A stretch of DNA of 64,000 nt. It comes from Rhizobium tropici CIAT 899. Lineage in GTDB: Bacteria > Pseudomonadota > Alphaproteobacteria > Rhizobiales > Rhizobiaceae. A model generated the notes under the pieces. It had not been told where the DNA came from. It searched no databases and worked only from the letters and a program-made list of their open reading frames with translations. A program made the translations under genes and the position numbers. The stretch is taken from NCBI RefSeq assembly GCF_000330885.1, contig NC_020060.1:62001-126000 (forward strand). The letters run 5' to 3'. This document shows positions 4,456 to 25,225 of the stretch, one piece after another (positions within the stretch are counted from its first letter, which is position 1; every line of letters begins with the position of its first letter).

Positions 4456-5813
4456 GATCATGTCCCAGGACGTGGTGTAGCTTAGACGACCACGGCTCAT
4501 CCCAGAGGGTCGGATGAGTATCAGCTTGCTGCTGGCAGGCTGATGAGCGGATCATCGCTCATTGTGGCGATTGTCTCAAGTGTCATGTAGCGGGATCGCT
4601 GGACGGCCCATTCATCGTTCTGTTCGAGCAGCAGCGCACCGACCAGGCGCACGATGGCGTCGTCGTTGGGGAAAATGCCGACGACCTCTGTGCGCCGCTT
4701 GATCTCACCGTTCAATCGCTCAATGGGGTTGGTCGAGTGAAGTTTGGCCCAATGCTGCTTGGGAAAGGTCATGTAGGCGAGCACGTCTTGCTCGGCACTG
4801 TCCATGAGACTGGCGAGCTTCGGTACCTTTGGCCTGATCTGGTCGGCGACGTTGCGCCACTGAGTGCTTGCGGCCTCCGGCGTGTCCTGAGCGAAGGCCG
4901 TTGCAATGAACGCGGAGACAACCCGGCGTCCGCTCTTTCCAGCATGGGCCAAGGCATTGCGCATAAAGTGCACCCTGCAGCGCTGCCAGGTGGCGGAAAG
5001 CACTTTCGATACTGCGGCCTTGATGCCCTCATGGGCATCGGAGACGACGAGCTTGACGCCGCGCAGCCCCCGCCTGATCAGCTTTCGAAGAAACTCGGTC
5101 CAGATCGCCTCGGCCTCGGACGTGCCGATCTCCATGCCGAGCACTTCGCGTCGGCCATCGGTGTTGACGCCGACGGCGATGATTACGGCGACGGAGACAA
5201 TACGACCACCGCGCCGAACCTTGAGGTAGGTCGCATCGATCCACAGGTAGGGCCATTCTCCTTCGATGGGCCTGTCGAGGAAGGCCTTCACCTTCTCATC
5301 GATCTCCTCGCAGAGCCGGGACACCTGACTTTTGGAGATGCCCGACATGCCCATGGCCTTGACGAGGTCATCAACAGAGCGGGTCGAAACACCCTGGATA
5401 TAAGCCTCCTGGATGACCGCCGTCAGAGCCTTCTCGGCCATGCGGCGCGGCTCCAGGAAGCTCGGGAAGTAGCTGCCGGTGCGAAGCTTGGGAATGCGCA
5501 GCTCGACGGTGCCCGCCCGTGTCTCCCAATCCCGGTCGCGATAGCCGTTACGCTGGGCCAGCCGGAAGCCATTCTTCTCGCCATAGGCCGCGCCGGTCTT
5601 CGTGCCGACCTCCAGCGCCATCAGCTTCTCGGCAGCAAAGCCGATCATCTCCCGCAGCAAATCGGCATCAGCGCTCTTCTCAACGAGTGAGCGCAGGTTC
5701 ATCATGTCGTCGGTCATCGGTGGTGTCCCTCAGGTTGGCTCTAAGCAACCCGACCCTACCGGAAATCACCGATGGCTATGAAATCAAGCTACACCACTCC
5801 ATGGGACACGATC
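4456..5813 (-). mobile_element. Complete IS256-family insertion sequence
   Basis: The element is 1358 bp, with imperfect 28-bp terminal inverted repeats at 4456-4483 and 5786-5813 that match at about 24 of 28 positions. Both begin GATC and share TGTCCCA and TGGTGTAGCTT. It encodes one transposase on the minus strand. The perfect ATTATTCA duplication and intact transposase frame point to a fairly recent insertion into the RidA gene. Confidence 0.95.
4521..5717 (-). CDS. IS256-family (mutator-type) transposase
   Basis: A 398-residue DDE transposase of normal length for the family. Candidate catalytic residues are the Asp in [11 protein letters not shown], the Asp in [13 protein letters not shown] and the Glu in [13 protein letters not shown]. 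The N-terminal part ([17 protein letters not shown], then [20 protein letters not shown]) is the characteristic mutator-type DNA-binding region. It is the only gene of the element and looks intact. Confidence 0.95.
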
Positions 5814-5821: not shown

Positions 5822-6234
5822 CGATCCGTCAGAACAATTCAGAGCTATGTGGGACAACTTACGGATTGTCCTGGAAGCCGCTCATTGCACGTTCGATGAC
5901 ATCGTGGAAATGACAAGCTATCACGTCGAAATGTCCAAGCACATGGACGTGTTCCGGACTGTTAAAAACGAGGTATTTCCGAAGGGAACCTATGCGTGGA
6001 CCCGAATAGGTGTCTCCGAGCTCGCCCACCCGGGACTCCTCGCTGAGGTGAAATGTGTTGCCGTTAAGCGATAATGGAAACTATTTTGTCGCGAGCGATC
6101 CCTTTACGCTGAAGCATAAAGTTTACAACCGCTTAGAGAAGCCAAGGCGACGAACTATGGTTCGTGTCCCATCAAGAGCGTCGAGTATGGCTATTGTCGA
6201 AGAGCGCTACAGCGCGGCGCTTAAGTTTAGCTCC

Positions 6235-6765
6235 TTATGGTGAGGTGTTTTCGCGCGATGTCCCGGCATAACGCACGCCAATAAACGCCATCAGACTGGC
6301 GACTGCAAAAACGTTGATGCTCGACAATGTCGCGATTTGGTCGCCGGTCCATGGAAAAACGGGTTCCTTGAGCCTCCACCAGCATGCCGCAAAGCAAACG
6401 AAGATGAAACAGGTAAGGCCTCGCTGCCACCATTTCTCGACGGGATCGAACGAGACCAGTGTCAGCGCCATGCAGGGTGCAAGGAATAGGAGTGTGGCAG
6501 ACGCTCTTCCGAAAACGATGGATTCGCATACGGTATCGATCGTGCCGATCAGCGGCAGCGCCAGCCGGGCACTAAACGGCGATTTTCTAGCGATCAAAGG
6601 TACCGCCAGAAAAAAGGCAATGGCGACGAGCGTTATGGCTGATGTTTCAACGCCATCGCCAACCAGCCACCAGACATAAAAAGGGTAGAACGGTTTATTG
6701 GCTATGATGACCCAGGCGATCGTGACGGTTGCTCCGGTCCTTGGATCCAGCGCCGGCCGCCTCAT
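6235..6765 (-). CDS. Integral membrane protein of unknown function
   Basis: A 176-residue protein with about five hydrophobic segments, including TIAWVIIANKPFYPFYVWWL, a stretch around VAIAFFLAVPLIA, LLFLAPCMALTLV and INVFAVASLMAFIG. I do not recognise the family. Its start overlaps the stop of the upstream methyltransferase gene by 4 bases (6762-6765), so it is the third gene of the minus-strand operon DUF1295 protein, methyltransferase, membrane protein. Co-transcription suggests a role in lipid or envelope remodelling; that is inference only. Confidence 0.75.
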   Translation of the reverse strand: MRRPALDPRTGATVTIAWVIIANKPFYPFYVWWLVGDGVETSAITLVAIAFFLAVPLIARKSPFSARLALPLIGTIDTVCESIVFGRASATLLFLAPCMALTLVSFDPVEKWWQRGLTCFIFVCFAACWWRLKEPVFPWTGDQIATLSSINVFAVASLMAFIGVRYAGTSRENTSP

Positions 6766-7790
6766 CCTGCTGGCCTCAGGAGATAATGACCTACCCCCCA
6801 GACATCACCGTTGTCATGGCCAAAGAGGCCCGCGGTGGCGAGGAAAAAGAGCCGCCAACGGCGCTGCCAAACCGCGCTGTCCCTCCCATAGACCTTGGCG
6901 AAGATCGGCTGGATGCGGTCGATCTCACGGTCGAAATTGGCGAGCCAGTCGAGCGCCGTTCGGCGATAATGGGTTCCCGACCAGCGCCATTCCTTTTCGA
7001 CTGAAAACAGATCGGCAAAGCGACGCGGCAGATCATGTGCCGGCATGATGCCGCCGGTAAAGAAATGACGGGCAATCCAATCGGCCGGATCCTGGTGGTT
7101 GAAGCGATAGGAGCGGTCCTTGTGAGTGAAGACATGGAGGAAAAGCTTGCCGTGCGGATTGAGCCATCCGCGGACACGCTCGAGCAAGGTGCGCCAGTTG
7201 GACATATGCTCGAACATCTCGATCGAGATCACTCGATCAAAGCTTCCATCGGTCGTAAAGTCGTTCATATCTGCCGTGATGACGGTAAGATTGCCGAGAT
7301 CGTGCTTCTGCGACATGGCGAGAATGTATTCGCGCTGTGAGGTGGAATTTGAAACCGATGTAATCCGCGAATTGGGAAATTGCTTTGCAAGATAAAGGGA
7401 CAGTGAACCCCAGCCGCAACCAAGCTCCAGGATACTGTTTCCATCCTCGATTTCGGCATGCTCCACGGTTTCGGCAAGTGCATAAGTCTCGGCTTCCGCC
7501 AGCGTCGTATGGGGTGCGGGATAAAGGCAGCACGAGTATTTTCGTTGAGGTCCCAGGGTTAAGCTGAAGAATTCCGCCGGGACTTCATAATGCTGTCGGT
7601 TGGCCTCATCGGTGTGTGTCGCTACCGGAAAATTTCCCATTGCTTCGACAAACAAATTTTCCGCGTCTTGCGACGTCGTCGATAGACGGTGTTTGGTGCG
7701 TGCACAGAGAAAATCTATCCCAGCCAGCGTCATGCTGTCCGTAAGCGGAGCGCGCTCTGCGGCGTTGATCGCAAATGCCAGCATATTCAT
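6762..7790 (-). CDS. CFA synthase-like SAM-dependent methyltransferase
   Basis: A 342-residue class I methyltransferase related to cyclopropane fatty acid synthases, but shorter than canonical Cfa (about 380-410). The SAM-binding motif is ILELGCGWGSL at residues 120-130. FDRVISIEMFEHMSNW is the post-II motif of the CFA family. RQHYEVPAEFF replaces the usual H(Y)D(L)G(N)xFY lead-in. Such enzymes transfer methyl or methylene groups to unsaturated lipid chains. The start at 7790 follows GGAG by nine bases. It lies 3 bases after the DUF1295 gene in the same operon. Confidence 0.85.
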   Translation of the reverse strand: MNMLAFAINAAERAPLTDSMTLAGIDFLCARTKHRLSTTSQDAENLFVEAMGNFPVATHTDEANRQHYEVPAEFFSLTLGPQRKYSCCLYPAPHTTLAEAETYALAETVEHAEIEDGNSILELGCGWGSLSLYLAKQFPNSRITSVSNSTSQREYILAMSQKHDLGNLTVITADMNDFTTDGSFDRVISIEMFEHMSNWRTLLERVRGWLNPHGKLFLHVFTHKDRSYRFNHQDPADWIARHFFTGGIMPAHDLPRRFADLFSVEKEWRWSGTHYRRTALDWLANFDREIDRIQPIFAKVYGRDSAVWQRRWRLFFLATAGLFGHDNGDVWGVGHYLLRPAG

Positions 7791-7793
7791 CGG

Positions 7794-8594
7794 CTATTCT
7801 CCTTGAGAAACGAATTCGGATTTGCGTGGACCTGGGAAGAAGGCGTTCACACGCTTCCGCAGCGCGCGAAATTTATCACCGCGCGATCGCAGCATATGTT
7901 CTTCCAGTGGCGGAATTCCGGAGACATGCACCAGCAGCCAATACATCAACGCCGGTGCGAGCAGCGATAACAAGCTCGTTGGCGAGCTTGTGACGGCAAA
8001 TAGCGGCAGGCAGCACCAGAACAGCCACTCGAAAAAATAGTTGGGATGGCGGGAATAACGCCACAGCCCCGTCTCGCAGACCTCACTCCTGGCTTCCGGC
8101 CTTCGACGAAATCGGGCGAGCTGTGCGTCCGAGATTGTCTCGCCGGCGAGAGCCGTGGCGGCAAGTAACACGGCAAGCCAATCCGTTACCGCCGGATAGG
8201 CCTTGTCATTGATCGCCGCGAGATAGATGGCGAATACGAGGACGAAAGCCGCAAGCGCCTGAACCTGCAGAAAGATAAAGAGCCGCGAGCTGGCACTGGC
8301 GCCCCAGTCCCTCATCAGTTTGGCATAGCGTGGATCTTCTCCGCCGCCTTTGGTGCGAACTCCAATATGCCCGGCGAGCCGCAGCGCCCAGGCTGCCACG
8401 ATGATTATCACGGTCATCCGGCGCGAGAATGGGCCTTCTGCACAGCCGGCAGTGAAGATGCCGCCCAAGCCGACGGCCGCAGACCAAATGGTGTCGATCC
8501 AGCCGCTCATGCCGGTTGTACGCTGCACGATCCAGGCTCCGGCCATCGCCAGCGATATGCCGGCCGCCACGATTGCTAGAAGAAACAAATCCAT
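7794..8594 (-). CDS. DUF1295 membrane protein (steroid 5-alpha-reductase-like fold)
   Basis: A 266-residue multispanning protein of the DUF1295/isoprenylcysteine methyltransferase-steroid reductase superfamily. The C-terminal signature includes GLWRYSRHPNYFFEWLFW, with the RHPNYF motif seen in family members, followed by PLEEHMLRSRGDKFRAL. The family is thought to be NAD(P)H- or SAM-dependent enzymes acting on membrane lipids; the exact reaction is unknown. It is the first gene of the minus-strand operon and is divergent from the FAD oxidoreductase. Confidence 0.85.
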   Translation of the reverse strand: MDLFLLAIVAAGISLAMAGAWIVQRTTGMSGWIDTIWSAAVGLGGIFTAGCAEGPFSRRMTVIIIVAAWALRLAGHIGVRTKGGGEDPRYAKLMRDWGASASSRLFIFLQVQALAAFVLVFAIYLAAINDKAYPAVTDWLAVLLAATALAGETISDAQLARFRRRPEARSEVCETGLWRYSRHPNYFFEWLFWCCLPLFAVTSSPTSLLSLLAPALMYWLLVHVSGIPPLEEHMLRSRGDKFRALRKRVNAFFPGPRKSEFVSQGE

Positions 8595-8630
8595 CCGTCG
8601 CTCGCATTACGCTTTTGTGTCGCGATACGT

Positions 8631-8660
8631 TATTTACGGACGGTCCTTTGAACTGGTTTC
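8631..8660 (-). promoter_or_regulatory. Possible ECF-type promoter for the DUF1295 operon
   Basis: On the minus strand, GAAACC (8660-8655) is followed after 18 bases by TAAATA (8636-8631), about 37 bases before the DUF1295 ATG. The 18-base spacing and TA at -10 match the GATCC promoters at 13647, 13678 and 25197, but the -35 differs. Tentative. Confidence 0.35.
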
Positions 8661-8689
8661 GTGCTGCTAGAAAAAATCTCACGTCGTGC

Positions 8690-8719
8690 GAAACCGGCGG
8701 TCGTCTACCTCCGTATCTG
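8690..8719 (+). promoter_or_regulatory. Possible ECF-type promoter for the FAD oxidoreductase operon
   Basis: GAAACC (8690-8695), 18 bases, TATCTG (8714-8719), with the ATG at 8763. The same GAAACC-N18-TA pattern points the other way at 8660-8631, so each divergent lipid operon has one. Tentative, because the -35 differs from the GATCC form. Confidence 0.35.
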
Positions 8720-8762
8720 TCTTGAAAGCCGAGAGCTTGTTGCGGGAGACCGGGGGTATTTG

Positions 8763-10136
8763 ATGGGTCGCTACGATCGAAACGACGGCAGCCGTCGACT
8801 TAACATTGCAGTTATAGGAAGTGGCATTTCGGGACTGTCGGCAGCTTGGCTTCTCTCAAATCGCCATGACGTGACTGTCTTCGAAGCAAGCGATCGGCTC
8901 GGCGGCCATAGTAATACGGTGACATTCGAAAGCGCCGCGGGTCCTGTATCCGTCGATACCGGTTTCATAGTCTACAACGAGGTTACATATCCCAACTTAA
9001 CGGCCTTGTTCCGCACACTCGACGTTCCAACGGCTGCATCCAATATGTCTTTTGCAGTTTCGATCAATGATGGTGCCTTCGAATATTCCGGTGGTACGGG
9101 CCTCGGTCTCTTCGCGCAGAAATCGAACATTGTCCGCCCGCGTTTCTGGTCGATGATGCGCGATCTGGTGCGCTTCTATCGCAATGCCCCGCGGGACTTG
9201 CTCGACACGGATGGCATCTCCCTTGATGACTATCTCTCATGCAACGGCTATGGTCGCGCCTTTCGCGACGACCATTTGTACCCGATGGCCGCGGCTATCT
9301 GGTCTACCCCTGCGATGGAGATCGGCGCTTATCCAGCGGCAAGTTTTGTCCGCTTCTGTAACAATCATGGCTTGCTCAATCTATGGGATCGGCCGATTTG
9401 GCGCACTGTAAGGGGCGGCAGCCGCGAATACATTGCCCGCATGACCCACGGCTTTACCGACCGCATCCGGTTATCGACGCCAGTGAAGGCGATAAGACGC
9501 GGACCACAAGGCGTAGAGCTTGAGGACAGTACCGGCGGCCATCACGCTTTCGACGATGTGGTGATCGCAACCCATGCCGACCAGGCGCTTCGAATGCTTG
9601 TGGATGCAAGCGCCGATGAAAGACGCATTCTGGGTGCCTTCCGCTATTCGCGTAACGAAGCGGTCCTGCATAGCGATGTCTCGTTCATGCCGAAACGGCG
9701 CGCTGCCTGGTCTAGCTGGAACTATATGGCTGATACGCGCGGCGGACCGAGCCAACCCTCCATCACCTATTGGATGAATAAGCTGCAGCCGCTGGGTTTA
9801 GCGCCGCCGACTTTTGTCACCCTCAATCCGCGCCGAGCGCCAAAGGAGGAAACCGTCATCTGCCGTGAGATATATGAACATCCAGTTTTCGATCTCAAGA
9901 CCGATTGCGCACAGAAGGAAATCTGGTCGCTTCAAGGCATCCGCAATACCTGGTTTTGTGGCGCGCATTTCGGTTCTGGTTTCCACGAGGATGGCATCCA
10001 GGCGGGCCTTGCGGCGGCTGAGGATCTCGGTGGCTTTCGGCGGCCCTGGCAAGTCTCGCAGGAAAGTGGTCGTATCGTCCGTCAGCCGATTAGCCGGCCT
10101 GTCAAGTTGCTGCCAAGCGTGGAGGTTACCGCATGA
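8763..10136 (+). CDS. FAD-dependent oxidoreductase (flavin amine oxidase/desaturase-like)
   Basis: A 457-residue flavoprotein. I chose the ATG at 8763 because it follows a GGGGG-rich ribosome site and places the dinucleotide-binding motif VIGSGISGL at residues 17-25, followed by the FAD-binding E and GG (FEASDRLGGH). The C-terminal FAD signature is FCGAHFGSGFHEDGIQAGL. This is the family commonly found beside Cfa genes. A relative in Rhodobacter sphaeroides (UfaD, from memory) desaturates methylated fatty acyl chains en route to furan fatty acids. It overlaps the DUF1365 gene by 4 bases. A lipid-chain oxidation role is inferred. Confidence 0.85.
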   Translation: MGRYDRNDGSRRLNIAVIGSGISGLSAAWLLSNRHDVTVFEASDRLGGHSNTVTFESAAGPVSVDTGFIVYNEVTYPNLTALFRTLDVPTAASNMSFAVSINDGAFEYSGGTGLGLFAQKSNIVRPRFWSMMRDLVRFYRNAPRDLLDTDGISLDDYLSCNGYGRAFRDDHLYPMAAAIWSTPAMEIGAYPAASFVRFCNNHGLLNLWDRPIWRTVRGGSREYIARMTHGFTDRIRLSTPVKAIRRGPQGVELEDSTGGHHAFDDVVIATHADQALRMLVDASADERRILGAFRYSRNEAVLHSDVSFMPKRRAAWSSWNYMADTRGGPSQPSITYWMNKLQPLGLAPPTFVTLNPRRAPKEETVICREIYEHPVFDLKTDCAQKEIWSLQGIRNTWFCGAHFGSGFHEDGIQAGLAAAEDLGGFRRPWQVSQESGRIVRQPISRPVKLLPSVEVTA

Positions 10137-10966
10137 GTGCGGAACTTCAATCTGCGCTTTTTTCCGGCCTGGTCACACATGCTCGTGTAAGGCCCAAGCA
10201 GCACAGGCTTAGCTACCGGATCTATTCTCTGCTGCTCGATCTCGATGAGCTTGACCAGATCGATCGGCGGTTCCGCCTTCTCTCCATCGATCGTTTCAAC
10301 CTTTTCTCCTTCTATCGCAAGGATCGAGGCGACCGGTCTGGATCCGATCTGAGGAAACAGCTCGAGGGGAACATGCGAAGCGCCGGTATCGAGCCGGATG
10401 GCGGTCCAATACTGCTGCTGACAATGCCGCGACTGTTCGGTTGGGCTTTCAATCCGCTCAGTGTCTTCTTCTGTTATTCGAAGGATGCGTCGCTCAAAGC
10501 CATACTCTGGGAAGTGGACAATACGTTCGGTGAGCGTCACGGCTATATGATCCCGGTCGAGGCGAGCGATGCGCCTGAAATTATCCAGCAGTGCGACAAG
10601 GCTTTCTACGTCTCGCCTTTTATGGAGATGGATCTGCGGTATCAGTTTCGCGTGTCGCCACCCACCGACGTTCTTTCCATCCGTATCGAGACTTTCGATC
10701 GCGATGGGCCGGTATTGACCGCCAGGCATGTGGCGCGTCGTAGCGAGCTTACGGATCGCGCATTGCTTAAAGCGTTTTTCGCGATCCCTTTTCTGACGCT
10801 TCGTGTCGTCGGAGGCATTCATTGGGAAGCGATGAAGATCTGGCTGAAAGGTATTGGATTGCGGGCACGTCCCCATCCTCCGGAAAGCTCTGTTTCATTC
10901 GGTTGCTTATCCCCCACTGAAGTGAAAATACCCAAGTCCAAGGTTGACATTCATGAGCCATTTTGA
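10133..10966 (+). CDS. DUF1365 domain protein
   Basis: A 277-residue DUF1365 protein. Characteristic segments are TPHTR-like THARVRPKQHRLSYRI near the N-terminus and GWAFNPLSVFFCY around residue 102. The family is almost always encoded between an FAD amine-oxidase-like protein and a CFA synthase, as here, but its biochemical role is not settled. A contribution to acyl-chain modification is inferred from this conserved context. The start ATG at 10133 overlaps the preceding stop (ATGA), and its 3' end overlaps the CFA synthase start, so the three genes are translationally coupled. Confidence 0.85.
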   Translation: MSAELQSALFSGLVTHARVRPKQHRLSYRIYSLLLDLDELDQIDRRFRLLSIDRFNLFSFYRKDRGDRSGSDLRKQLEGNMRSAGIEPDGGPILLLTMPRLFGWAFNPLSVFFCYSKDASLKAILWEVDNTFGERHGYMIPVEASDAPEIIQQCDKAFYVSPFMEMDLRYQFRVSPPTDVLSIRIETFDRDGPVLTARHVARRSELTDRALLKAFFAIPFLTLRVVGGIHWEAMKIWLKGIGLRARPHPPESSVSFGCLSPTEVKIPKSKVDIHEPF

Positions 10967-12185
10967 CGATTTCTCCCGCGCGTCGATGCGTCCGTCCGAT
11001 AGCACCGAGGGGTTTGGTTTCGTCGACCGACTTCTCATGAGGCTGATGCGCGACGTTCGCTACGGCCACGTGAAGATTTCGTTGCCGTCAGGGCAGGTCG
11101 TCGAAAAATACGGCGTTGAGCCGGGCCCAGAGGCTATCATTAACATTAGGCGTTGGCGCTGGTTACCTCGCCTGATCCTTGCAGGAGATATCGGTTTTGC
11201 GGAGAGTTACCTCGATGAGGACTGGACAACTCCAGATTTGACCGCAGTCATCCGCTTCGCCGCCAAAAACATCGACGCGCTAGCGCCGGCTATCGAAGGC
11301 CGTGCGATGATGCGGCTCTTCAACAGGGCAAAACATCTGTTCAATGCCAATACGAAGAAAGGCAGCCGTCGTAACATCGAGGCGCATTACGATCTCGGCA
11401 ACGAATTCTACAAGCAATGGCTCGACTCCACGATGCTCTATTCATCGGGAATTTTTGACACTTCTACAGATACCCTCGAAGCTGCTCAGCAAAAGAAACT
11501 TGATCATATTCTGCAAAAACTTGATCTCACTCGTGATGATAGTGTTTTGGAGATCGGCTGCGGCTGGGGTGCTCTTTCCATATTCATGGCAGCTCGTGCC
11601 AACGCCAAGGTGACCGGCATCACCTTGTCACCTTCACAGTTCGCCTGGGCAAGGGAGGCTGCCGCGAGTGCGGGAGTGCAGCAGCAGTTGAACCTGCGCC
11701 TCCAAGACTACCGCGATCTCGATGGGCAGTTCGATCGCATCGTCTCGATCGAAATGTTCGAGGCAGTAGGGGAGACCTATTGGCCGGACTATTTCTCGAC
11801 GTTGAAACGTTGCTTAAGACCCGGTGGCAAGGCTGTGCTGCAGGTGATCTCGATTGATGAGAAACGTTTCGATGCCTATCGGCGCGGTTCCGATTTCATC
11901 CAGAAGTATATTTTTCCCGGCGGTTTTCTGCCCTCCGATTCAGCATTGGAGGCGGCTGTTGTAAAGGCAGGCTTCAGGCTCGCAGCAAGGGAGCATTTCG
12001 GCAAATCCTACGCACGAACACTTCTCGAGTGGCGTACCCGCTTTCATGCGCGCTGGCCGGCAATTGCCGCCCTCGGCTTTGATGAGCGGTTCCGTCGCCT
12101 TTGGCATTACTATCTGTGTTATTGCGAAGCCGGCTTTGAGGAGGGGAGCATCGACGTCGGGCTTTATACACTTGAGCACGCGTGA
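10953..12185 (+). CDS. cfa: Cyclopropane-fatty-acyl-phospholipid synthase
   Basis: This 410-residue protein has the full Cfa length. HYDLGNEFYKQWLD precedes the SAM motif VLEIGCGWG (about residues 198-206), and FDRIVSIEMFEAVGE and the C-terminal W-R-x-R-F segment follow. Cfa enzymes add a methylene from SAM across cis double bonds of membrane phospholipids. The ATG at 10953 is preferred over the upstream TTG at 10944. The gene overlaps the DUF1365 gene by 14 bases. With the shorter paralogue at 6762, the locus has two different CFA-type methyltransferases, so one of them may make a methylated rather than cyclopropane product. Confidence 0.9.
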   Translation: MSHFDDFSRASMRPSDSTEGFGFVDRLLMRLMRDVRYGHVKISLPSGQVVEKYGVEPGPEAIINIRRWRWLPRLILAGDIGFAESYLDEDWTTPDLTAVIRFAAKNIDALAPAIEGRAMMRLFNRAKHLFNANTKKGSRRNIEAHYDLGNEFYKQWLDSTMLYSSGIFDTSTDTLEAAQQKKLDHILQKLDLTRDDSVLEIGCGWGALSIFMAARANAKVTGITLSPSQFAWAREAAASAGVQQQLNLRLQDYRDLDGQFDRIVSIEMFEAVGETYWPDYFSTLKRCLRPGGKAVLQVISIDEKRFDAYRRGSDFIQKYIFPGGFLPSDSALEAAVVKAGFRLAAREHFGKSYARTLLEWRTRFHARWPAIAALGFDERFRRLWHYYLCYCEAGFEEGSIDVGLYTLEHA

Positions 12186-12213
12186 AGGTCGGCGGTCAAA
12201 AGGAGGTCCAGGC

Positions 12214-12585
12214 ATGAGAGCGATGATTGGAGCGATTGCTTATCTGGCTGCAGCATTTGTAACTGACGCGCAAGCGGCCGGAATCGAAGGCCAGTGGGCG
12301 CGAGGAGATGGCAACGCCAAAGTGAGAATTGCCCCCTGCGGATCGGCCATCTGTGCAACAAATACCTGGATCAAGCCGGGAACGCCGAGCGAAAAAGCCG
12401 GTGACAAGCTGGTGATGACGATCAAGCCCAGTGAAGAGGGCGTCTATTCCGGTGAGGCTTTCGATCCCCAACGTGATTTGAACTACAGGATCACAGTGAA
12501 AGTGGATGGTGACCGGATGTCCACGAGGGGCTGTGTTATTGCCGGGCTGATTTGCCGCGATGTCGATTGGACACGCATCCGCTGA
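12214..12585 (+). CDS. DUF2147 exported protein
   Basis: A 123-residue protein with a signal peptide (residues 1-21, cleavage after AQA). The DUF2147 fold begins IEGQWARGDGNAKVRIAPCG and ends in CRDVDWTRIR. Four cysteines (CGSAIC and GCVIAGLIC) may form disulfides. The start at 12214 follows a strong AAGGAGG, which rejects the longer upstream frame. DUF2147 proteins are small periplasmic beta-barrel-like proteins without a firm function. It is the fourth gene of the plus-strand lipid operon. Confidence 0.85.
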   Translation: MRAMIGAIAYLAAAFVTDAQAAGIEGQWARGDGNAKVRIAPCGSAICATNTWIKPGTPSEKAGDKLVMTIKPSEEGVYSGEAFDPQRDLNYRITVKVDGDRMSTRGCVIAGLICRDVDWTRIR

Positions 12586-12605
12586 TCGACCGAAGGAAGG
12601 CCGCT

Positions 12606-13037
12606 ATGGAGAATGTGGTGAAAACCTACGTCGTTGCCTATATCGTTACACTGGTTGTGTTCATCGCCATCGATTTTATCTGGCTGAGCAGCATGACCGA
12701 CCGTCTTTACCGGCCTGTAATGGCAGAGATACTGACAGCGGACTTCCGACTCGCGCCTGCCATCGCCTTCTACCTGATTTATGCGTTTGGACTTACGGTT
12801 CTCGCCGTTCGCCCGGGGCTGATCGGGGAGTCGATCCAGACTGCGATAGTGTGCGGGGCGATGCTCGGCTTTACGGCTTATGCCACCTATGATCTGACCA
12901 ATCAGGCGACACTCAAGAACTGGTCGACTATTCTGACCTTAGCCGATCTTTTTTGGGGTACGATCCTCTCAGGCTTTGCTGCCGGTTGCGGGCAATGGAT
13001 AACGGCGCGTCTCCTCGGAACTCTTACACATGGCTGA
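12606..13037 (+). CDS. DUF2177 membrane protein
   Basis: A 143-residue protein with four hydrophobic segments. The family signature is FIAIDFIWLSSMTDRLYRPV near the N-terminus, and ATYDLTNQATLKNW follows in the third segment. GAAGGAAGG precedes the ATG at 12606. Function is unknown; the family recurs next to Cfa/DUF1365 clusters. It ends the plus-strand operon and converges on the TspO gene 38 bases away. Confidence 0.85.
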   Translation: MENVVKTYVVAYIVTLVVFIAIDFIWLSSMTDRLYRPVMAEILTADFRLAPAIAFYLIYAFGLTVLAVRPGLIGESIQTAIVCGAMLGFTAYATYDLTNQATLKNWSTILTLADLFWGTILSGFAAGCGQWITARLLGTLTHG

Positions 13038-13075
13038 AGATCAGGGGTGAGTGCTATTCGCGATAGCCCGCACAT

Positions 13076-13576
13076 TCAAAGATTTAACCGCCAAATTTCG
13101 AAATTGAGCGCTATCGCGAAAGCAACCCAAACAGCGAGAGGTACAAGACTGTAACTAGCGATTCGGTCGAGAAGGCGAAACTTGAAGATTGTGAGCAGGA
13201 TTAAAGTCCATTGCGGAACGATGTTGATAAGGCCAAGCAGCGGGCTATGGAGCGCAAAGAAGGCCCACGACCATGCGGCATTGAACGCCAGTTGCAGATA
13301 AAAGCAAATGAGCGCCGCCGACTTTTGCGGTTGGTCTCCTGGAAGTATCCATATGCGCCAGACTGCAAACGACATAGATGCGTAAAGGAGGGTCCAGACC
13401 GGCCCAAAGATCCAATTCGGTGGATTGAATGCGGGCTTGGCAAGGCCTGCGTACCAACCCTCAATGTTCGGCAGGGTCGCCCACTGTCCGAGAAGAAGGG
13501 TTAAGATAACCGGGATCGCCGCGAGGCCGGCCTTCACTAAAGGCTTTTGTTGGTCCAATGTTTTTCGCGGCATCAT
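13076..13576 (-). CDS. tspO: TspO/MBR family tryptophan-rich sensory protein
   Basis: A 166-residue protein with five predicted transmembrane helices, the standard TspO topology. Diagnostic residues lie in WYAGLAKPAFNPPNWIFGPV and WTLLYASMSFAVW. TspO binds porphyrins and degrades or transports tetrapyrroles; in photosynthetic and rhizobial alphaproteobacteria it has been tied to oxygen, light or nutrient stress. It is divergent from the ECF sigma factor. A TGATCC-type promoter with an adjacent, back-to-back -35 lies 70-100 bases upstream, so it is probably a direct sigma target. Confidence 0.9.
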   Translation of the reverse strand: MMPRKTLDQQKPLVKAGLAAIPVILTLLLGQWATLPNIEGWYAGLAKPAFNPPNWIFGPVWTLLYASMSFAVWRIWILPGDQPQKSAALICFYLQLAFNAAWSWAFFALHSPLLGLINIVPQWTLILLTIFKFRLLDRIASYSLVPLAVWVAFAIALNFEIWRLNL

Positions 13577-13646
13577 AATCTCTCTTCTGGCCCGCTTCCT
13601 GCACTGCGTTTGCCAAACCGAAGCCTTTGTTCCTGCTCTTCAAATC

Positions 13647-13675
13647 TGATACGTGGATTTTTCTGGATCGGATCA
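13647..13675 (-). promoter_or_regulatory. ECF-type promoter for tspO
   Basis: On the minus strand TGATCC (13675-13670) is followed by 17 bases and GTATCA (13652-13647), that is TGATCC-N18-TATCA. This fits the TGATCC-N18-TA form I recall for RpoE/ChrR sigma factors. Its -35 lies almost directly against the -35 of the sigma gene promoter within GGATCATGGGATCC. Confidence 0.65.
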
Positions 13676-13677
13676 TG

Positions 13678-13706
13678 GGATCCAAGCGGCATTGCCCATC
13701 GTAGAA
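13678..13706 (+). promoter_or_regulatory. ECF-type autoregulatory promoter of the sigma factor gene
   Basis: GGATCC (13678-13683), 17 bases, GTAGAA (13701-13706). Spacing and -10 are the same as at folE (25225-25197). A transcript starting near 13713 would exclude the ATG at 13712 and favours the GTG at 13787. Confidence 0.65.
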
Positions 13707-13786
13707 AGCGCATGAATGTTTCAGCACCGCCTATCGATAGCCATGGCAAACAGAACAGCATCATCTCCTTCGAAAGGAGACGAGCG

Positions 13787-14365
13787 GTGACGACTTTGCA
13801 CGAGCACGATCCATTGTCGCGCGAAGCGGTCAATCAACTTGTTCTTACGATAGCAACCCGTCAGGATCGTCAGGCCTTTGCCGAGCTCTTCAATTTTGCT
13901 GCGCCAAGGATCAAGGCGTTTATGATGCGCTCCGGTTCTTCAGCTGAACTTTCCGAGGAAATCGCCCAGGAGGCGATGCTCTTGGTCTGGCGCAAGGCCA
14001 CTTATTTCGATCCTGCGCGCGCCAGTGCCATGACGTGGATTTTCACAATCGCCCGCAATTTGCGCATCGATTTTCAACGCAAGTCAAGGTCGTCAAAGCA
14101 AGCGTCTGAAGACGGAACGGAGGTCATGCAGGCCGCGGAGCCGACGCCTGAAGAGATTTTGTTTGTCAGAGCGGATGAAGAAAAGGTTCGCGTAGCGCTT
14201 CAGGCGCTGAGTTCCGAACAGGAAGAGATCATCAGATTGTCCTTTTTCCGTGATCGTCCTCACTCTGAAATTGCCAGGGAATTGGATTTGCCACTCGGCA
14301 CTGTGAAGTCTCGTATCAGGCGTGCGCTTGGAAAACTTAGGGATATGCTGGAAGAAACACTATGA
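13787..14365 (+). CDS. ECF RNA polymerase sigma factor, RpoE/ChrR type
   Basis: A 192-residue ECF sigma factor. Region 2 contains FAELFNFAAPRIKAFMM and the DNA-melting segment AMTWIFTIARNLRIDFQR. Region 4 is QEEIIRLSFFRDRPHSEIAR followed by LPLGTVKSRIRRALGKL. The GTG at 13787 has GGAG at optimal spacing; the upstream in-frame ATG at 13712 has no good site and coincides with the predicted transcription start. The next gene is a ChrR-like anti-sigma factor overlapping by 4 bases, so it belongs to the singlet-oxygen-responsive group (ECF11-like). Predicted targets are itself, tspO, folE-phrB, and possibly the lipid operons. Confidence 0.9.
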   Translation: MTTLHEHDPLSREAVNQLVLTIATRQDRQAFAELFNFAAPRIKAFMMRSGSSAELSEEIAQEAMLLVWRKATYFDPARASAMTWIFTIARNLRIDFQRKSRSSKQASEDGTEVMQAAEPTPEEILFVRADEEKVRVALQALSSEQEEIIRLSFFRDRPHSEIARELDLPLGTVKSRIRRALGKLRDMLEETL

Positions 14366-15012
14366 CGAACAAGCATCATCCCAGCGATCAGACACTCGTG
14401 CGTTTTGCTGCAGGCACGCTGCCGGCCGGTCCGTCACTCGTTGTTGCCGCTCATTTGAGTGGTTGCCCCTTCTGTCAAAGGCGCGTGGCGACCTTTGAGG
14501 CCGTTGGCGGAGAGATGCTGATCCGAACGGAACCCCAGGCGCTTTCTCCTCGCGCTCTTCAACAAACGCTTGCGCGTTTGGATGTAGTTGGGAGGCCCAG
14601 CCATATCGCGCCGCACCGCTCACCGCCTTCCATCGATGGCATTATTCTTCCAAGCCCACTGGCTGGTTGCGAAGTAGGTCCCTGGCGTCCTGTGGGACCG
14701 GGGGTGAGGCTTAGCCGCATTCGTGTGCCTCACGCGCCGAAAGCGAACGTTATTCTGCTGAAGGTAAAAGCGAATAAGCACATGCCGGCGCACGGGCATA
14801 CGGACCTGGAGGTGACGCAGGTTCTGAAAGGATCGTTTTCCGATGGCAATAATCGTTACGAGCCCGGTGACTTTGTCGAGGGAGACGACGAGACGGATCA
14901 TCGTCCGGTGATCGGCAGCGACGGTGAGTGCATATCCCTGGCGGCGATCGAAGGACAGGTCCGTTTCAAGGGGTTACTTGGCAGATTGCTGGGGCCTTTC
15001 GCCGGCATCTGA
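14362..15012 (+). CDS. chrR: ChrR-like zinc anti-sigma factor with cupin domain
   Basis: A 216-residue two-domain protein. The N-terminal zinc anti-sigma domain has His6, then H31-x3-C35-x2-C38 (AAHLSGCPFC). The C-terminal cupin (about residues 125-205) includes HMPAHGHTDLEVTQVLKGSF and a second motif ending in DHRP. In Rhodobacter sphaeroides ChrR the first domain binds the sigma factor and the cupin is needed to release it on singlet oxygen. The same logic is inferred here from domain order and the 4-base overlap with the sigma gene. Confidence 0.9.
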   Translation: MTNKHHPSDQTLVRFAAGTLPAGPSLVVAAHLSGCPFCQRRVATFEAVGGEMLIRTEPQALSPRALQQTLARLDVVGRPSHIAPHRSPPSIDGIILPSPLAGCEVGPWRPVGPGVRLSRIRVPHAPKANVILLKVKANKHMPAHGHTDLEVTQVLKGSFSDGNNRYEPGDFVEGDDETDHRPVIGSDGECISLAAIEGQVRFKGLLGRLLGPFAGI

Positions 15013-15367
15013 TTGCCTTTGACTGAATGCTAATGCCGTTGGAGTTTGGCAATGGTTTAGTTGGAACAATAATTCGTCCTGATCATTTCGATTATGGAGT
15101 TAAACGGGTAGCAGTACGAATGGTATTCGGATCGAGATAGAACAATTCGGGCGAAAGCGCCAGTGAGTGGCAGCTGTGGCGAGAATATCAACGCAGATGT
15201 TCATTTGAGTTGATATGAATTACTAAGCTTTATTGTTGGCTTTGGTCATATTAAAAAGGTTGCCTATCGAAAACTTGCTCTATCTGTTCGATCAATTGAA
15301 AAACCACTACTCTTGAAATTAATCGGCTATCCCCAATGTCGCTCCTCTAGGTACGGGATCGAGTATT
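15013..15367 (+). other. AT-richer intergenic region before the LOV kinase
   Basis: No gene is recognised. The stretch is visibly more AT-rich than its neighbours, as expected for a promoter region. I found no GATCC-N18-TA promoter in it, so the LOV kinase may not be a direct sigma target. Confidence 0.4.
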
Positions 15368-16474
15368 ATGGACCGAGATCAGGATCAGGAAGATGCAAGG
15401 CAAGCGGGTGAACGGCTTGTAGCGGCTCATGCGAGCGAGGACCCCTTCGCCGCGGCATTCAAAGCGACGCGTATGCCGATGATTATTACCGACCCAAACC
15501 AGCATGATAACCCGATAATTTTTTGCAACGGCGCGTTCGAGCGGCTGACTGGTTATTCGAGCGATGAATTGATCGGGCGCAATTGTCGAATTCTGCAAGG
15601 TCCGGAGACGAGTCGAGACACCGTCGCTGTCGTCCGCGATGCGGTCGCTGGGGGACGCAGCGTATCCGTCGACATTTTGAACTATAAGAAGGATGGCAGC
15701 GCGTTCTGGAATGCATTGTTCATCAACCCCGTTTGGGACCGCCAAGGCCAGATTACTTATTTCTTCGCTTCGCAACTCGACTTTACGAACATCAAAAGCA
15801 GGGAAGCGGACCTGGCATCAGCGCGTCATCAGGCCGAAGAAGAGGTCAAGGATCGCACTAACGATTTGCGCGCTGCACTGACGGCAAAGACCCTGTTGAT
15901 TCATGAGGTTGATCATCGTGTCAGAAACAATCTTCTGACCATGGCTTCGATCGTCAAGATGCAGTTGAGGTTGACAAAGGATCAGGGTCAGCAAGATGCC
16001 TTGATGGCAGTGCTCAACCGGATCGAAGCAATCAGTATCGTCCAGCGTAAGCTTTTTACAACCAACGACGTCACTCGCTTTGACTTGGGTGATTTCGCGT
16101 ATGAGCTCGTTTTGGACCTGCTCGGAGCTATGAAGCGTGATGATATACGACTGACGCTCGATATTTCGCCAGCCTATGTTCCAGCCCTGAAGGCGTCTCC
16201 GCTGTCGCTTATCTTGAACGAGTTGATCGGCGATGCCCTCAGTCGTGGGATCAGGGACAGCGGAGGTGACATCCATGTTGTCATCAAACAGTTCAACGAA
16301 CGCCTCCTCATCAGGGTGGAGGATATATCGGAACCGATTATCCCGGATGAGATGAGCGCAGAATTGAGTCGGCTGCTCCTTGAGAGGTCGGCGCTTCAGG
16401 TGGGCGCGACAATCGAGCGAAAGTGCGAAGAGCGGCATACGACCGTGGACGTCACTTTACGGGTCGAAAGCTAG
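15368..16474 (+). CDS. LOV-domain blue-light histidine kinase (HWE/HisKA_2 type)
   Basis: A 368-residue cytosolic kinase without membrane segments. The PAS/LOV core contains GRNCRILQG with the adduct-forming Cys at about residue 73, plus NYKKDGSAFWN and YFFASQLDF, the flavin-contacting strands. A coiled linker leads to the HisKA_2 box LIHEVDHRVRNNLL with the phospho-acceptor His at about 183. The ATPase region is divergent. LOV kinases of this layout sense blue light through FMN in Brucella and rhizobia. The next gene is its likely receiver partner. Confidence 0.9.
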   Translation: MDRDQDQEDARQAGERLVAAHASEDPFAAAFKATRMPMIITDPNQHDNPIIFCNGAFERLTGYSSDELIGRNCRILQGPETSRDTVAVVRDAVAGGRSVSVDILNYKKDGSAFWNALFINPVWDRQGQITYFFASQLDFTNIKSREADLASARHQAEEEVKDRTNDLRAALTAKTLLIHEVDHRVRNNLLTMASIVKMQLRLTKDQGQQDALMAVLNRIEAISIVQRKLFTTNDVTRFDLGDFAYELVLDLLGAMKRDDIRLTLDISPAYVPALKASPLSLILNELIGDALSRGIRDSGGDIHVVIKQFNERLLIRVEDISEPIIPDEMSAELSRLLLERSALQVGATIERKCEERHTTVDVTLRVES

Positions 16475-16488
16475 GAGGAACTACTGCT

Positions 16489-16911
16489 TTGAAAGTCATG
16501 ATCGTTGAAGACGAAATGTTGCTTGCGATGGAGCTGCAATGGGAGATCGAGGCAGCCGGTCATACGGTTGTCGGACAGGCGGCAAGTGGCGCTCAAGCGC
16601 TGGAGCTTTTGGAAGCATCTCCACCGGAATTTGCATTTGTGGACATCCAGTTGCAGGACGGTCCGAAGGGAATCGATTTTGGGCGAGCGCTGGCTGAAAG
16701 GAGTATCCCGTACGTCTTCGTCAGCGGCAATATCAAAAAGCTGCCGCCGGACTTCGCGGGTGCGATGGGCGCTATTGAGAAGCCTTACACAATGAACGGA
16801 ATTGCGAACGCGCTTGAATATATATCGGCGGTTGTTTCAGGAGATGAGGATCGACTGCCGCCGGCAAGCCTCGTTCTGGCTGCAGACTATCTTCGAATCA
16901 ATTCCAAATAG
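16489..16911 (+). CDS. Single-domain response regulator (receiver only)
   Basis: A 140-residue receiver domain with no output domain. The acidic pocket is VEDE near residues 6-9, the phospho-acceptor Asp is at about 52 (FVDIQLQDG), and the conserved Lys is at about 98 (EKPY). I favour the TTG at 16489, ten bases after AGGAGG; the longer upstream frame would run inside the kinase gene. It lies 14 bases after the LOV kinase and is very probably its phosphorylation partner. Receiver-only partners of LOV or HWE kinases often act as phosphate sinks or relays. Confidence 0.85.
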   Translation: MKVMIVEDEMLLAMELQWEIEAAGHTVVGQAASGAQALELLEASPPEFAFVDIQLQDGPKGIDFGRALAERSIPYVFVSGNIKKLPPDFAGAMGAIEKPYTMNGIANALEYISAVVSGDEDRLPPASLVLAADYLRINSK

Positions 16912-17112
16912 TCGTTAGCGACTTTGCCGTTCGAATTGCTGGATGACCTCCTGATAACGTACGCGCAGGTTGAAATCGTGATCATTTCGGCGGTTAGTAC
17001 AGTTTGTGGCCTGACATGCGGCGGAACTCTTTCGCGTTAGATCTCCAGTCGATGCTTTGCTAAGCGATATAGCGACAGCAGGCCGGGTTTATCTGTCTTG
17101 CGAAATCTAAGA

Positions 17113-22313: not shown

Positions 22314-23015
22314 CTACCAGCTAATCTGGCTGCCGTCATAGGCGAAAAATCCGCCGCTTTGCTCGGGCGTTAAGCTGTTGGCGACCTGGAGGATGGATCT
22401 TGCCGCTTCTTGTGGTGAAAGATGATGTCCATTGGAAAACGGTGCCGAAAGTGGCGTTTCAACAGTTCCGGGATGTATGGCGGCGAGTACATACAGGGGA
22501 TGTGTCCTCAAAAGTTCGATCGATGCTGTCTTTACGATTTGGTTCAGCGCCGCTTTCGAGCTGCGATAGGAGATCAATCCACCAAGCCCATTATCGCTGA
22601 TAGACCCCAGGCGTGCGGATAGCACGACCATTAATGCTCGGTCCTTATTCGCCATCAAGGGGGTGAAGTGCTTTAACACGAGCGCGGGGCCGACCGCGTT
22701 AACCGCGAACTGACGCATCATAGTGCTGAGGTCGATTTGGCGTATGCTCTTTTCTGGGCGAGAGCCATCTATTGTGAGCGCCCCGGTTGCGCAGACAATC
22801 AAGTGAAGCGGTGCAACGAGCGCGTCCGAATGTCTACGCACGCTCATTTCATCTTCCAAATCGAAGCCATTCGTCGATCGGGACAAAGTCGAGACACTGG
22901 CAACTCTTGGGTCGCGCGCAAGCATAATAGATATTGCCGAACCGATACCACCCGATCCCCCGATCACCAAAGCCCGGTATCCTGTGGTAAGGGAAGTCAT
23001 GGAAAACACCGTCAA
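22314..23015 (-). CDS. SDR family protein, C-factor (CsgA)-like
   Basis: A 233-residue SDR with cofactor motif VIGGSGGIGSA near residue 18 and YxxxK in SYRSSKAALNQI. The usual NNAG is replaced by ICATGAL, as in the CsgA/YciK-like branch. Substrate is unknown. Its start overlaps the photolyase stop by 4 bases (23012-23015), making it the third gene of a folE-photolyase-SDR operon. Many photolyase or cryptochrome operons carry such an SDR; a role in pterin or fatty-alcohol reduction is possible but unproven. Confidence 0.82.
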   Translation of the reverse strand: MTVFSMTSLTTGYRALVIGGSGGIGSAISIMLARDPRVASVSTLSRSTNGFDLEDEMSVRRHSDALVAPLHLIVCATGALTIDGSRPEKSIRQIDLSTMMRQFAVNAVGPALVLKHFTPLMANKDRALMVVLSARLGSISDNGLGGLISYRSSKAALNQIVKTASIELLRTHPLYVLAAIHPGTVETPLSAPFSNGHHLSPQEAARSILQVANSLTPEQSGGFFAYDGSQISW

Positions 23016-24634
23016 ACTCCCTCAGGTTGGGAAAGTTTTGAAAGGTAACGGGCAGCGCTTTCGATAATCTCCACGCGATCAGCCTCGTACATTCGATCCC
23101 AGTTTGCGTATTGCCGTGAAAGTCTCCGATTTACGGAAAGGCGGTTGCGGTTGCGCGCGAGAAAGTCCCAGTAAAGAAAATTGAAAGGACAAGCGTCGTC
23201 CCCGGTTCGCTTTTCCACGCTGAACCGGCAGTTGGCACAGTAATCCGACATGTGCGATATGTACTTGCCGCTTGCAGCATAGGGTTTCGTACCGACGATA
23301 CCACCGTCGGCAAATTGACTCATGCCGATCACGTTAGGTACTTCAACCCATTCGTAGGCGTCCGCATAAACTTCAAGGTACCACTCGTGCACCTGTCTGG
23401 GATCGACACCCGCGATAAGAGCGAAGTTGCCAGTGATCATCAGGCGTTGAATATGATGCGCATAGGCGTTCGCTCGTGTTTCGCGCACCACCGTGGCCAC
23501 ACAGTTCATGTCGGTTTCGCCTGACCAATAAAATGCAGGGAGTGGCCGCTCGCTGTTGAAAAAATTCATTTCGCGGTAAGCGCGCATGCTAAGCCAATAG
23601 ATACCGCGCATATATTCGCGCCAGCCTATGATCTGCCGTATGAATCCTTCCACGGAATTCAGTGGTGCACGACCGTCGAGATACGCGCTTTCCGCTCGTC
23701 TGCAAAGGTCGAGAGGATCGATGAACCCCACGTTAATGTAGAATGATAGCAGGGAATGATTTAGGAATGGATCGTCCGCCAGCATCGCGTCTTGGGTGGA
23801 ACCGAACTCGGCCAGGTGGTTACGCAAAAAGTCATCAGAGATGCGTATCGCCTCGGAACTTGTTACCGCAAAGTTGAAATCATTCAATTCGCCGAAGTTG
23901 TCGGGGAATAACCGTCCAACAATGCCAATTACCTCATCAGTTACCGCGTCCTGACTGGTGACCCGGCGTTCGGGTCGAAACATATCAGGATTTGCCGGGC
24001 GTCTGTTCTCAGTGTCGAAGTTCCATTTACCACCGACAGGCTCGTCGCCTTGCATTAGGAGGCCGGTCTTACGCCGCATTTCGCGGTAGAAGAACTCCAT
24101 TACGAATGTTTTTCGCCCCGCCGCCCATGCGGCAAACTCGGCTTTACTGCAGATAAACCGCTTGTCCTCAACTATCTTTACCGGTGTGTTCAATGAAGCT
24201 TGCCAGCCACAGACAATCTCATGGACACGCCACTCGCCAGGTTCTGTGAGCTGTATGCTCTTAGGACACATATCGCTGACGGCGCGGCGAAGCTCGCCAT
24301 CAAATGAACCGGAGTTTGCTGGATCATCAATCGTAACATAGCGGACGTGGTAGCCCCTATCACGAAGCTCTTGGGCGAAATGCCTCATCGAACTAAATAT
24401 GAAAGCGATCTTCTTCTTGTGATGCCCGACGTAGGTTGCCTCGGCCATGACCTCGCACATGAGAATGGCATCCGATGCGGAGTTGAAGCCATCCAAACTG
24501 GAGATTGAGTGGGATAGCTGGTCGCCTAGGATGAAGACGAGTGTCTCGACTGTCGCGGCCTCGCCTTTACCTTCATCTCTTAACACAGCTAAAAAATCTC
24601 GCCTGCAGAGCAGGGTCCTTCTGAAACATGCCAT
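23012..24634 (-). CDS. phrB: Iron-sulfur bacterial photolyase/cryptochrome (PhrB / FeS-BCP family)
   Basis: Up to 540 residues and closely similar in layout to Agrobacterium PhrB, a (6-4) photolyase using FAD, a 4Fe-4S cluster and a lumazine antenna. Seen here are [29 protein letters not shown], the FAD region ([20 protein letters not shown]) and the four cluster cysteines in MNCVA, CANC and ACPFN. It repairs UV lesions or signals by light. The ATG at 24634 overlaps folE by 62 bases; a GTG at 24586 is an alternative. Part of an operon with a predicted ECF promoter. Confidence 0.92.
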
Positions 24635-25175
24635 TGAACGTGCTGGTCAGCGTGCGCGATCCACTTTTTGACACGCCGCGCATCGACATGCACATATGCT
24701 CGGCCTCGATAATCACACCAGCCCCTTTTGTTTGCAGGCACCGATCGAGCGCAACGGCGATTTCGCTGGTCATGCGCTCCTGTATCTGGAGCCGCCGTGC
24801 GAATAATTCGACAAGACGAGCGATTTTGGACAGCCCTACAACCCGCTCGCTAGGGACATAGGCGACATGGGCAACACCGTGAAACGGCAGCATATGGTGC
24901 TCGCAGTGAGAGAAGAACGGGATATCTCGGACGATTACTACGTCCTGGTAGCCGGCAACCTCGCCAAAGGTCGTCTTCAGAACGTCGTCCGCTGTCTCAT
25001 GATATCCCGCAAAAAGCTGCTGATATGCTTTTGCCACTCGAGCGGGGGTATCCTTGAGACCTTCCCGACCCGGATTGTCGCCCGCCCAAGCGAGAAGAAC
25101 GCGAACTGCATTTTGCACTTCTTCAAATGTTGGAACGACCGACGCCTGAGATGTCTCTGTAACGATTTGATCCAT
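24573..25175 (-). CDS. folE: GTP cyclohydrolase I, type 1
   Basis: A 200-residue enzyme converting GTP to dihydroneopterin triphosphate, the first step of folate/pterin synthesis. Zinc and substrate motifs are [39 protein letters not shown] and [14 protein letters not shown] eight bases upstream selects the ATG at 25175 over a longer frame to 25253, and the predicted ECF promoter at 25225-25197 lies inside that longer frame. Coupling to a photolyase suggests a dedicated pterin supply, perhaps for a cofactor or antenna; that link is inference. Confidence 0.93.
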
Positions 25176-25196: not shown

Positions 25197-25225
25197 TTCT
25201 ACGATCTGTACGGATGACCGGATCG
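25197..25225 (-). promoter_or_regulatory. ECF-type promoter of the folE-phrB-SDR operon
   Basis: On the minus strand CGATCC (25225-25220), 17 bases, GTAGAA (25202-25197). Five of six -35 bases, the spacing and all six -10 bases match the sigma factor gene promoter at 13678-13706. Predicted leader to the folE ATG is about 15 bases and includes its GGAG. Confidence 0.6.

Follow-up and report, generated by a model that had tools for sequence, protein, structure and literature searches.

A Rhizobium tropici LOV protein with degenerate kinase motifs beside an ECF sigma-ChrR island: probably two adjacent plasmid modules

In this work, we analyzed a 64,000-nt stretch of Rhizobium tropici CIAT 899 (NC_020060.1 of assembly GCF_000330885.1, positions 62,001-126,000, forward strand), hereafter the window, whose own positions are used throughout. 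We concentrated on its segment 6235-16911, which holds two divergent lipid operons, tspO, genes for an extracytoplasmic function (ECF) sigma factor and ChrR, and a gene for a LOV/HisKA_2 protein together with that of a lone receiver. The LOV protein belongs to a rhizobial clade in which the ATP-binding motifs of a histidine kinase are lost and the phospho-acceptor histidine is kept, and its neighborhood with the ChrR island is recurrent but not general. We therefore favor, with moderate confidence, the reading that two separate modules lie side by side on a plasmid: an ECF11-ChrR regulon, and a LOV phosphotransferase or phosphatase with its receiver.

According to this proposal, singlet-oxygen damage would remove ChrR, and the freed sigma factor would switch on its own gene, tspO, furan fatty acid (FuFA) synthesis as well as a folE-photolyase operon from promoters of the form GATCC/GAAACC-N16-CGTA. 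The LOV receptor, descended from HisKA_2 histidine kinases, would act as a blue-light-gated histidine phosphotransferase and/or phosphatase, shuttling phosphate from and to HWE kinases and the receiver, which would set the flux in the general-stress phosphorelay. In the window clade the two modules would abut, each with promoters of its own. The lack of autophosphorylation, the phosphotransfer, its gating by light and the general-stress link are the most likely interpretation of the motif patterns described below.

The LOV protein, its receiver and neighboring kinases

15368..16474, plus strand: LOV-HisKA_2 protein with a degenerate ATP-binding domain (PAS and HisKA_2 matches)
16489..16911, plus strand: single-domain receiver, LovR/SdrG-like (PF00072, 2.3e-12; start taken as TTG at 16489)

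The window LOV protein has a LOV-HisKA_2 arrangement from about residue 27 on, with no membrane segment seen by reading, and gave no match to any HATPase family in a profile search. We compared it with 80 named LOV loci, kept out of 132 relatives from Rhizobium, Neorhizobium, Agrobacterium, Ensifer, Shinella and others (flanks of some of them end at contig ends; loci are labeled L### and genomes G###), and made use of samples of 148 genomes of the genus and 394 of the family. The asparagine of the N-box is replaced by aspartate in 80/80 named loci (78 by regular expression and two by eye), with the glutamate of the box kept; the same Asp is present in 30 genus members, and among the 120 database proteins listed this position is Asp in 117, Glu in two and unmatched in one. 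A G2-type glycine box is absent by regular expression from 79 of the 80 loci. The single match, in L160, is a GLGT directly behind the N-box and was discarded as a G2 box, so that a true one is absent from all 80. Where EL346 has DDGRGI, the window protein has DISEPI in the alignment. The phospho-acceptor motif HEVDHRV[KR]N (HRxxN; its histidine is His183 in the window protein), on the other hand, is kept in 80/80 loci and the photoactive cysteine (NCRxxQ) in 79/80 by regular expression, the exception, L106, being a split open reading frame (ORF).

The motif loss sets this clade apart from its closest kin. Among sister LOV proteins (n=21, with 38-47% identity to the clade; L200, a locus retrieved for the ChrR in G360, lacks the lov of that genome and was not counted), the N-box and the glycine boxes are kept in 17. 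HATPase_c scored over its cutoff in 6/6 tested sisters versus 0/5 tested clade members, of which the nearest, L028, reached 17.3 bits against the 26.4 required. In a quick tree of 102 rows, built from residues 22-270 so as to exclude the ATPase region, 81 clade members stand on one side of a branch with a Shimodaira-Hasegawa-like approximate likelihood ratio test (SH-aLRT) value of 100, and the degenerate state needs three changes. The earlier note on this DNA had spoken of a LOV kinase; given the N-box Asp, the missing glycine boxes and the lack of a HATPase match, this label is doubtful.

As an observation apart, the four sisters L196-L199 independently lost both the N-box and the glycine boxes, in two further lineages; L198 and L199, which make up one of these, have an intact HWE kinase nearby, and L196 and L197 have none.

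The lone receiver gene comes next after lov in 30/30 genus loci and in 80/80 named loci. Throughout the latter, the receiver keeps the context of its phospho-accepting Asp and the EKPY motif, while VEDE is kept in 78 and the switch motif [PS][YF][VI]FV[ST]GN is matched in 78 and unmatched in two. Among solved structures, SdrG (5ieb, 9.6e-14) is its best relative, and PhyR-type receivers such as 4qic come next.

An HWE/HisKA2 kinase with intact motifs lies at most 4.5 kb away in 50 of the 80 named loci, and at most 500 bp away in 44. Kinase and lov occur in four relative orientations (23, 14, 12 and 1 loci), and the neighboring kinases of different orientation classes show median identities of 30-48%, with 77% for the highest pair. 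By comparison, only one of the 17 intact sisters has an intact HWE neighbor (flanks of about 4 kb for most), a difference that gives a Fisher value of 1.8e-5 when relatedness is ignored. EcfG-type sites precede lov in eight named loci, against 0.63 expected, and seven of these sites fall at -54 to -70; before the neighboring kinases none was found (0/48). The similarity of the receiver, together with these eight loci, is what suggests a link to the general stress response, and the sparseness of the sites before both lov and the kinases points to general-stress sigma control in some species at most.

In nine named LOV loci (about 2.3 kb downstream of lov in L144, for instance) there is, besides, a 481-aa protein which we take to resemble a KaiC-type double RecA ATPase.

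The ECF sigma-ChrR island and its promoter-like sites

6235..6765, minus strand: 176-aa protein without family, at the end of the minus lipid operon
6762..7790, minus strand: CMAS-family methyltransferase, probable FufM (second methylation of FuFA; PF02353, 5.8e-40)
7794..8594, minus strand: DUF1295 membrane protein, heading the minus lipid operon (PF06966, 3e-67)
8635..8660, minus strand: promoter-like GAAACC-N16-CGTA of the minus lipid operon (upstream alignment and motif scans)
8690..8715, plus strand: promoter-like GAAACC-N16-CGTA of the plus lipid operon (upstream alignment and motif scans)
8763..10136, plus strand: FAD amine oxidase-like protein, probable UfaD desaturase (PF01593, 8.1e-24)
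10133..10966, plus strand: DUF1365 protein, probable UfaO (PF07103, 3.1e-78)
10944..12185, plus strand: CMAS-family methyltransferase, probable UfaM (PF02353, 7.5e-86)
12214..12585, plus strand: DUF2147 protein (PF09917, 2.1e-12)
12606..13037, plus strand: DUF2177 membrane protein (PF09945, 3.1e-41)
13076..13576, minus strand: TspO (PF03073, 7.6e-41)
13650..13675, minus strand: promoter-like TGATCC-N16-CGTA of tspO (upstream alignment and motif scans)
13678..13703, plus strand: promoter-like GGATCC-N16-CGTA of ecf-chrR (upstream alignment and motif scans)
13787..14365, plus strand: ECF sigma factor, assigned to the ECF11 type from its ChrR partner (sigma-70 regions 2 and 4; start taken as GTG 13787)
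14362..15012, plus strand: ChrR anti-sigma factor (TIGR02451, 1.1e-58)
22314..23015, minus strand: short-chain dehydrogenase/reductase (SDR; PF00106, 1e-13)
23012..24634, minus strand: deoxyribodipyrimidine photolyase-related protein (DPRP; PF04244, 1.6e-80)
24573..25175, minus strand: GTP cyclohydrolase I FolE, operon head (NCBIfam NF006825, 8e-78; start set by reading)
25200..25225, minus strand: promoter-like CGATCC-N16-CGTA of folE (motif scan; 25 bases before folE)

All genes that the earlier note had named between 6235 and 16911 lie where it had placed them, and are supported by Pfam or NCBIfam. The island is plasmid-borne in R. tropici, where the window sits within a contig of 216,610 bp, and the closest record found for 6000-17100 comes from Rhizobium sp. 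11515TR, a 1.5-Mb plasmid (89.0% over 98%). Searches with Rfam (gathering cutoffs) and for tRNA genes and tandem repeats gave no matches.

Both lipid operons fit FuFA synthesis, with UfaM, UfaD, UfaO and FufM probably assigned correctly from domain types and gene order. The order FAD oxidase-like, DUF1365, CMAS of the plus operon is that of ufaD-ufaO-ufaM (RPA2571-2569) in Rhodopseudomonas palustris, where UfaO is reported to contain DUF1365 and UfaD an NAD-FAD-binding domain, and it is by analogy with the same work that the CMAS protein of the minus operon is probably FufM (PMC7380195). For the FAD oxidase-like gene an ORF was called at 8661-10136, and the in-frame ATG at 8763, past the promoter-like site, fits better. 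The 176-aa protein has no Pfam match at 0.001 (the best weak one is MASE7, 0.11), and its gene adjoins the CMAS/probable fufM gene in many relatives too.

ChrR scores 198.6 bits against TIGR02451 (cutoff 124.5), and its residues 1-205 align with the two-domain Rhodobacter sphaeroides ChrR 2z2s at 2.9e-33; the aligned His and Cys are presumably metal ligands.

The promoter-like sites came from an alignment of 15 upstream regions plus motif scans. They form two divergent pairs with N16 spacing, one in the tspO/ecf interval and the other in the gap that separates the lipid operons. The ecf site is kept in 13/13 loci (window and L063-L074), the tspO site in the 11/11 where tspO faces ecf, and the GAAACC pair in the 10/10 fetched loci of the window clade with a divergent lipid operon pair. 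In the distant L073 and L074, TGATCC-N16-CGTA precedes the FAD oxidase gene, which links the GAAACC and GATCC forms, and both may be served by the same sigma factor. L075 and L076, which have a different ECF (41%), lack the N16 site and carry GATCC-N15-CGTA in the alignment. Genome-wide, GATCC-N16-CGTA is matched 33 times in R. tropici versus five times for the reversed control; the match at about 37358 of the window duplicates a match on another replicon. In G122 (L067/L209), whose ChrR is 96% identical and which has no LOV, the position of lov is taken up by a second tspO (51%) together with more TGATCC-N16-CGTA sites.

Light-linked genes extend past 16911, to the folE-photolyase-SDR operon at 22-25 kb, which lies near LOV in both the window and G083. 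In G083, folE is 95% identical, the core of its site reads CAATCC and the photolyase match carries one stop; in L205, L210 and L211 the identity of folE is 61-62%. G141 and G078 have folE-photolyase relatives that are preceded by TGATCC-N16-CGTA and lie close to a different ChrR/FuFA island. Photolyase of this type was not found in the other 13 of the 16 genomes searched at E <= 1e-40, a set that leaves G078 outside.

The FuFA-ChrR part corresponds to the known ECF11 singlet-oxygen system, in kind an island already described (PMC6852236, PMC7074977); its self-controlled promoter, its targets and its activation by singlet oxygen are putative here. It resembles RpoE-ChrR of R. sphaeroides in having a ChrR homologue and FuFA genes beside rpoE-chrR (PMC6852236, PMC7074977, PMC7380195), and the RpoE regulon there includes photolyase, FuFA and folE2 genes (PMC7074977). 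The window differs in that the island is plasmid-borne, tspO stands at a sigma-type site, a photolyase of DPRP type goes with folE, the lipid operons have GAAACC for TGATCC, and a LOV pair lies alongside. The folE-photolyase-FuFA-TspO-ChrR set, with one type of promoter-like site, would make a testable photoprotection regulon in a plant symbiont.

Proximity of the LOV pair to the island

The earlier note had read the adjacency of the light sensor to the ChrR system as one locus integrating light quality and light damage. In the genus sample, ChrR of this type (at least 69% identity) occurs in 11 of the 148 genomes, all 11 with ecf and tspO, and lov lies beside chrR in five of them; in the remaining six, this LOV is either missing (G122, G103, G141 and G043) or on another contig (G104 and G095). 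Seen from the side of LOV, there are 40 genus loci in 33 genomes; eight have fufM or chrR at most 10 kb away, where random placement in the genome would give 0.18, and the other 32 do not (rows below 57% identity, short pieces and G095:C22:452454, with its in-frame stop, are left out of the 40). These eight loci form three lineages, which gives a Poisson value of 0.0009, or 0.018 if clustering triples the expectation. Once a shared contig is given, the expectation within 10 kb is already 3.0/16, since some contigs are short, and the test is weak at that level.

Similar results were obtained with the named loci, of which 9/80 have an island gene at most 6 kb from lov, through several junctions: chrR on either side, DUF2177, or the 176-aa gene (a weak tspO-like match of 85 bits in L116 was not counted). 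On the tree, the island label changes seven times, at least five of them forced by the starred branches; the 11 marked rows include the window and L082 (tspO only, with a LOV protein of intact motifs), both outside the nine. Within the family sample, a LOV match at E <= 1e-60 is found in 62 genomes (intact sisters included), fufM in 49 and both in 21, with the two at most 10 kb apart in 2/21, both of the genus of the window. No sigma-type site (GATCC/GAAACC-N16-CGTA) was found in the 300 bases before lov in any of the named loci (0/80), so that integration at the promoter level is not supported.

Thus, the neighborhood recurs, but it is not general. The earlier note had considered that its idea would fall if LOV were scattered and never near ChrR, with neither regulon responding to the other signal: LOV is scattered, and it does lie near ChrR in some genomes. 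There is no sign of shared promoters, and integration is unproven.

One integrated light island, with mutual control between the LOV pair and ECF-ChrR or with targets shared by both, nevertheless deserves consideration. Proximity has been repeated through different junctions, the folE-photolyase operon with its sigma-type site stands on the other side of lov, and a comparable gene set (photolyase, SDR, FAD oxidoreductase, ufaM and folE) is already known to be under a LOV receptor in Pseudomonas, there via LitR (PMC9758184). The Pseudomonas protein is, however, a short LOV that binds the MerR-type repressor LitR, with neither ChrR nor phosphotransfer, unlike what we propose for the window. Given the lack of sigma-type sites before lov, the presence of lov beside this ChrR in only five of 11 genomes and 2/21 in the family sample, and the expectation set by shared contigs, we regard integration as unlikely.

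Known phosphorelays, alternative functions and flanking genes

Two described systems bear on the second module. In Caulobacter, LovK takes phosphate from MrrA, hands it to LovR and also dephosphorylates LovR, constituting a general-stress sink (PMC5964349). Like LovK-LovR of Caulobacter crescentus, the window pair joins a LOV protein of HWE/HisKA2 type to an adjacent lone receiver gene; unlike the window protein, LovK is described as a histidine kinase with some autophosphorylation (PMC5964349). The clade to which the window protein belongs has lost the ATP-binding motifs and often has an intact HWE kinase next door. PhyT of Sphingomonas melonis, whose ATPase domain is degenerated and which has HRxxN, passes phosphate on from SdrG to PhyR (PMC5898713), and the same combination of HRxxN, degenerated ATPase domain and single-domain receiver is seen here. 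Furthermore, RT-HK with its Mg-binding Asn replaced (N256A) does not autophosphorylate on its own (PMC12148442). It is because the window pair combines features of LovK-LovR, PhyT-SdrG and RT-HK with a LOV sensor that we propose a light-gated phosphotransferase or phosphatase.

In its full form, this proposal holds that the widespread rhizobial family is no kinase at all and is instead the light-gated phosphotransferase or phosphatase of a split system, in which a separate HWE kinase supplies phosphate and a dedicated receiver takes it, and that in the R. tropici clade it stands beside an ECF11-ChrR-FuFA island, signal and damage being inherited as one plasmid block. We put it forward tentatively, as a reading with somewhat less than an even chance. 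If the phosphate-making part is indeed gone in it, the clade would be a natural light-controlled phosphate valve, and what has been predicted on light-driven phosphorylation for rhizobia and agrobacteria would have to be revised. The proteins concerned are numerous: 1294 database proteins match the LOV protein at E <= 1e-60 among the 8000 nearest candidates scored, a figure that may include intact sisters. Searches of openly licensed papers, read in part and with most subscription papers outside their scope, showed no rhizobial clade of LOV proteins that lack the kinase motifs.

Several observations weigh against this proposal. Motif loss does not prove that ATP binding is lost, and the AlphaFold model is weak overall (17 sequences; mean predicted local distance difference test score, pLDDT, 61.8, with blocks of 63-88 from residue 241 on). 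The receiver has FVSGN or FVTGN instead of the FATG[GY] of SdrG, and does not match the FATGUY pattern PFxFATG[GY]. PhyT is membrane-anchored, has a periplasmic sensor domain and is encoded at the phyR locus (PMC5898713), and here the sensor is LOV. The adjacency of the kinase changes 18 times on the tree, and the neighboring kinase is absent from 30 of the 80 loci, some of them cut by contig ends. In the window (22 kb read) and in L063-L066 (20 kb each) there is no HWE kinase, so that in this clade the phosphate donor must be elsewhere; the R. tropici genome has five HWE_HK matches including lov, and of the remaining four, the one at C1:3099505 keeps its motifs intact by regular expression. 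EcfG-type sites before lov are limited to 8/80 loci, four of which (L161, L162, L165 and L171) are one close group, and none was found before lov in the window clade.

The LOV protein might instead be a pure light-dependent binding partner, scaffolding or sequestering other proteins, with its histidine a relic, as the loss of the catalytic motifs would allow and as the direct binding of LitR by the Pseudomonas short LOV illustrates (PMC9758184). We give this little credence, as the H-box is kept in 80/80 loci along with the Asp context and the Lys of the receiver, which is not expected of a relic histidine. Retained kinase activity, with unusual motifs, seems more doubtful again: the HisKA_2 domain is kept, as is the ATPase-domain fold in the AlphaFold model, Foldseek retrieves with that model LOV kinases such as 4gcz, 4r3a and 6ph4, and NCBIfam and some database names say blue-light-activated histidine kinase (others, often, PAS-domain protein), but the conserved Asn has become Asp, both glycine boxes are lost, the model leaves 8 residues between strand and helix at the place of the ATP lid, and no HATPase match is found.

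Finally, the surroundings of the phosphotransferase candidate and of the ChrR island contain further genes. A Mutator-family transposase (4521-5717) lies at the island edge. Between lovR and the folE operon there is an RND efflux pump with a membrane fusion protein (17113-21464), which is also present in G083 and has no close copy in G143. Upstream of the folE operon stands a GGDEF diguanylate cyclase (25919-26809), again shared with G083.

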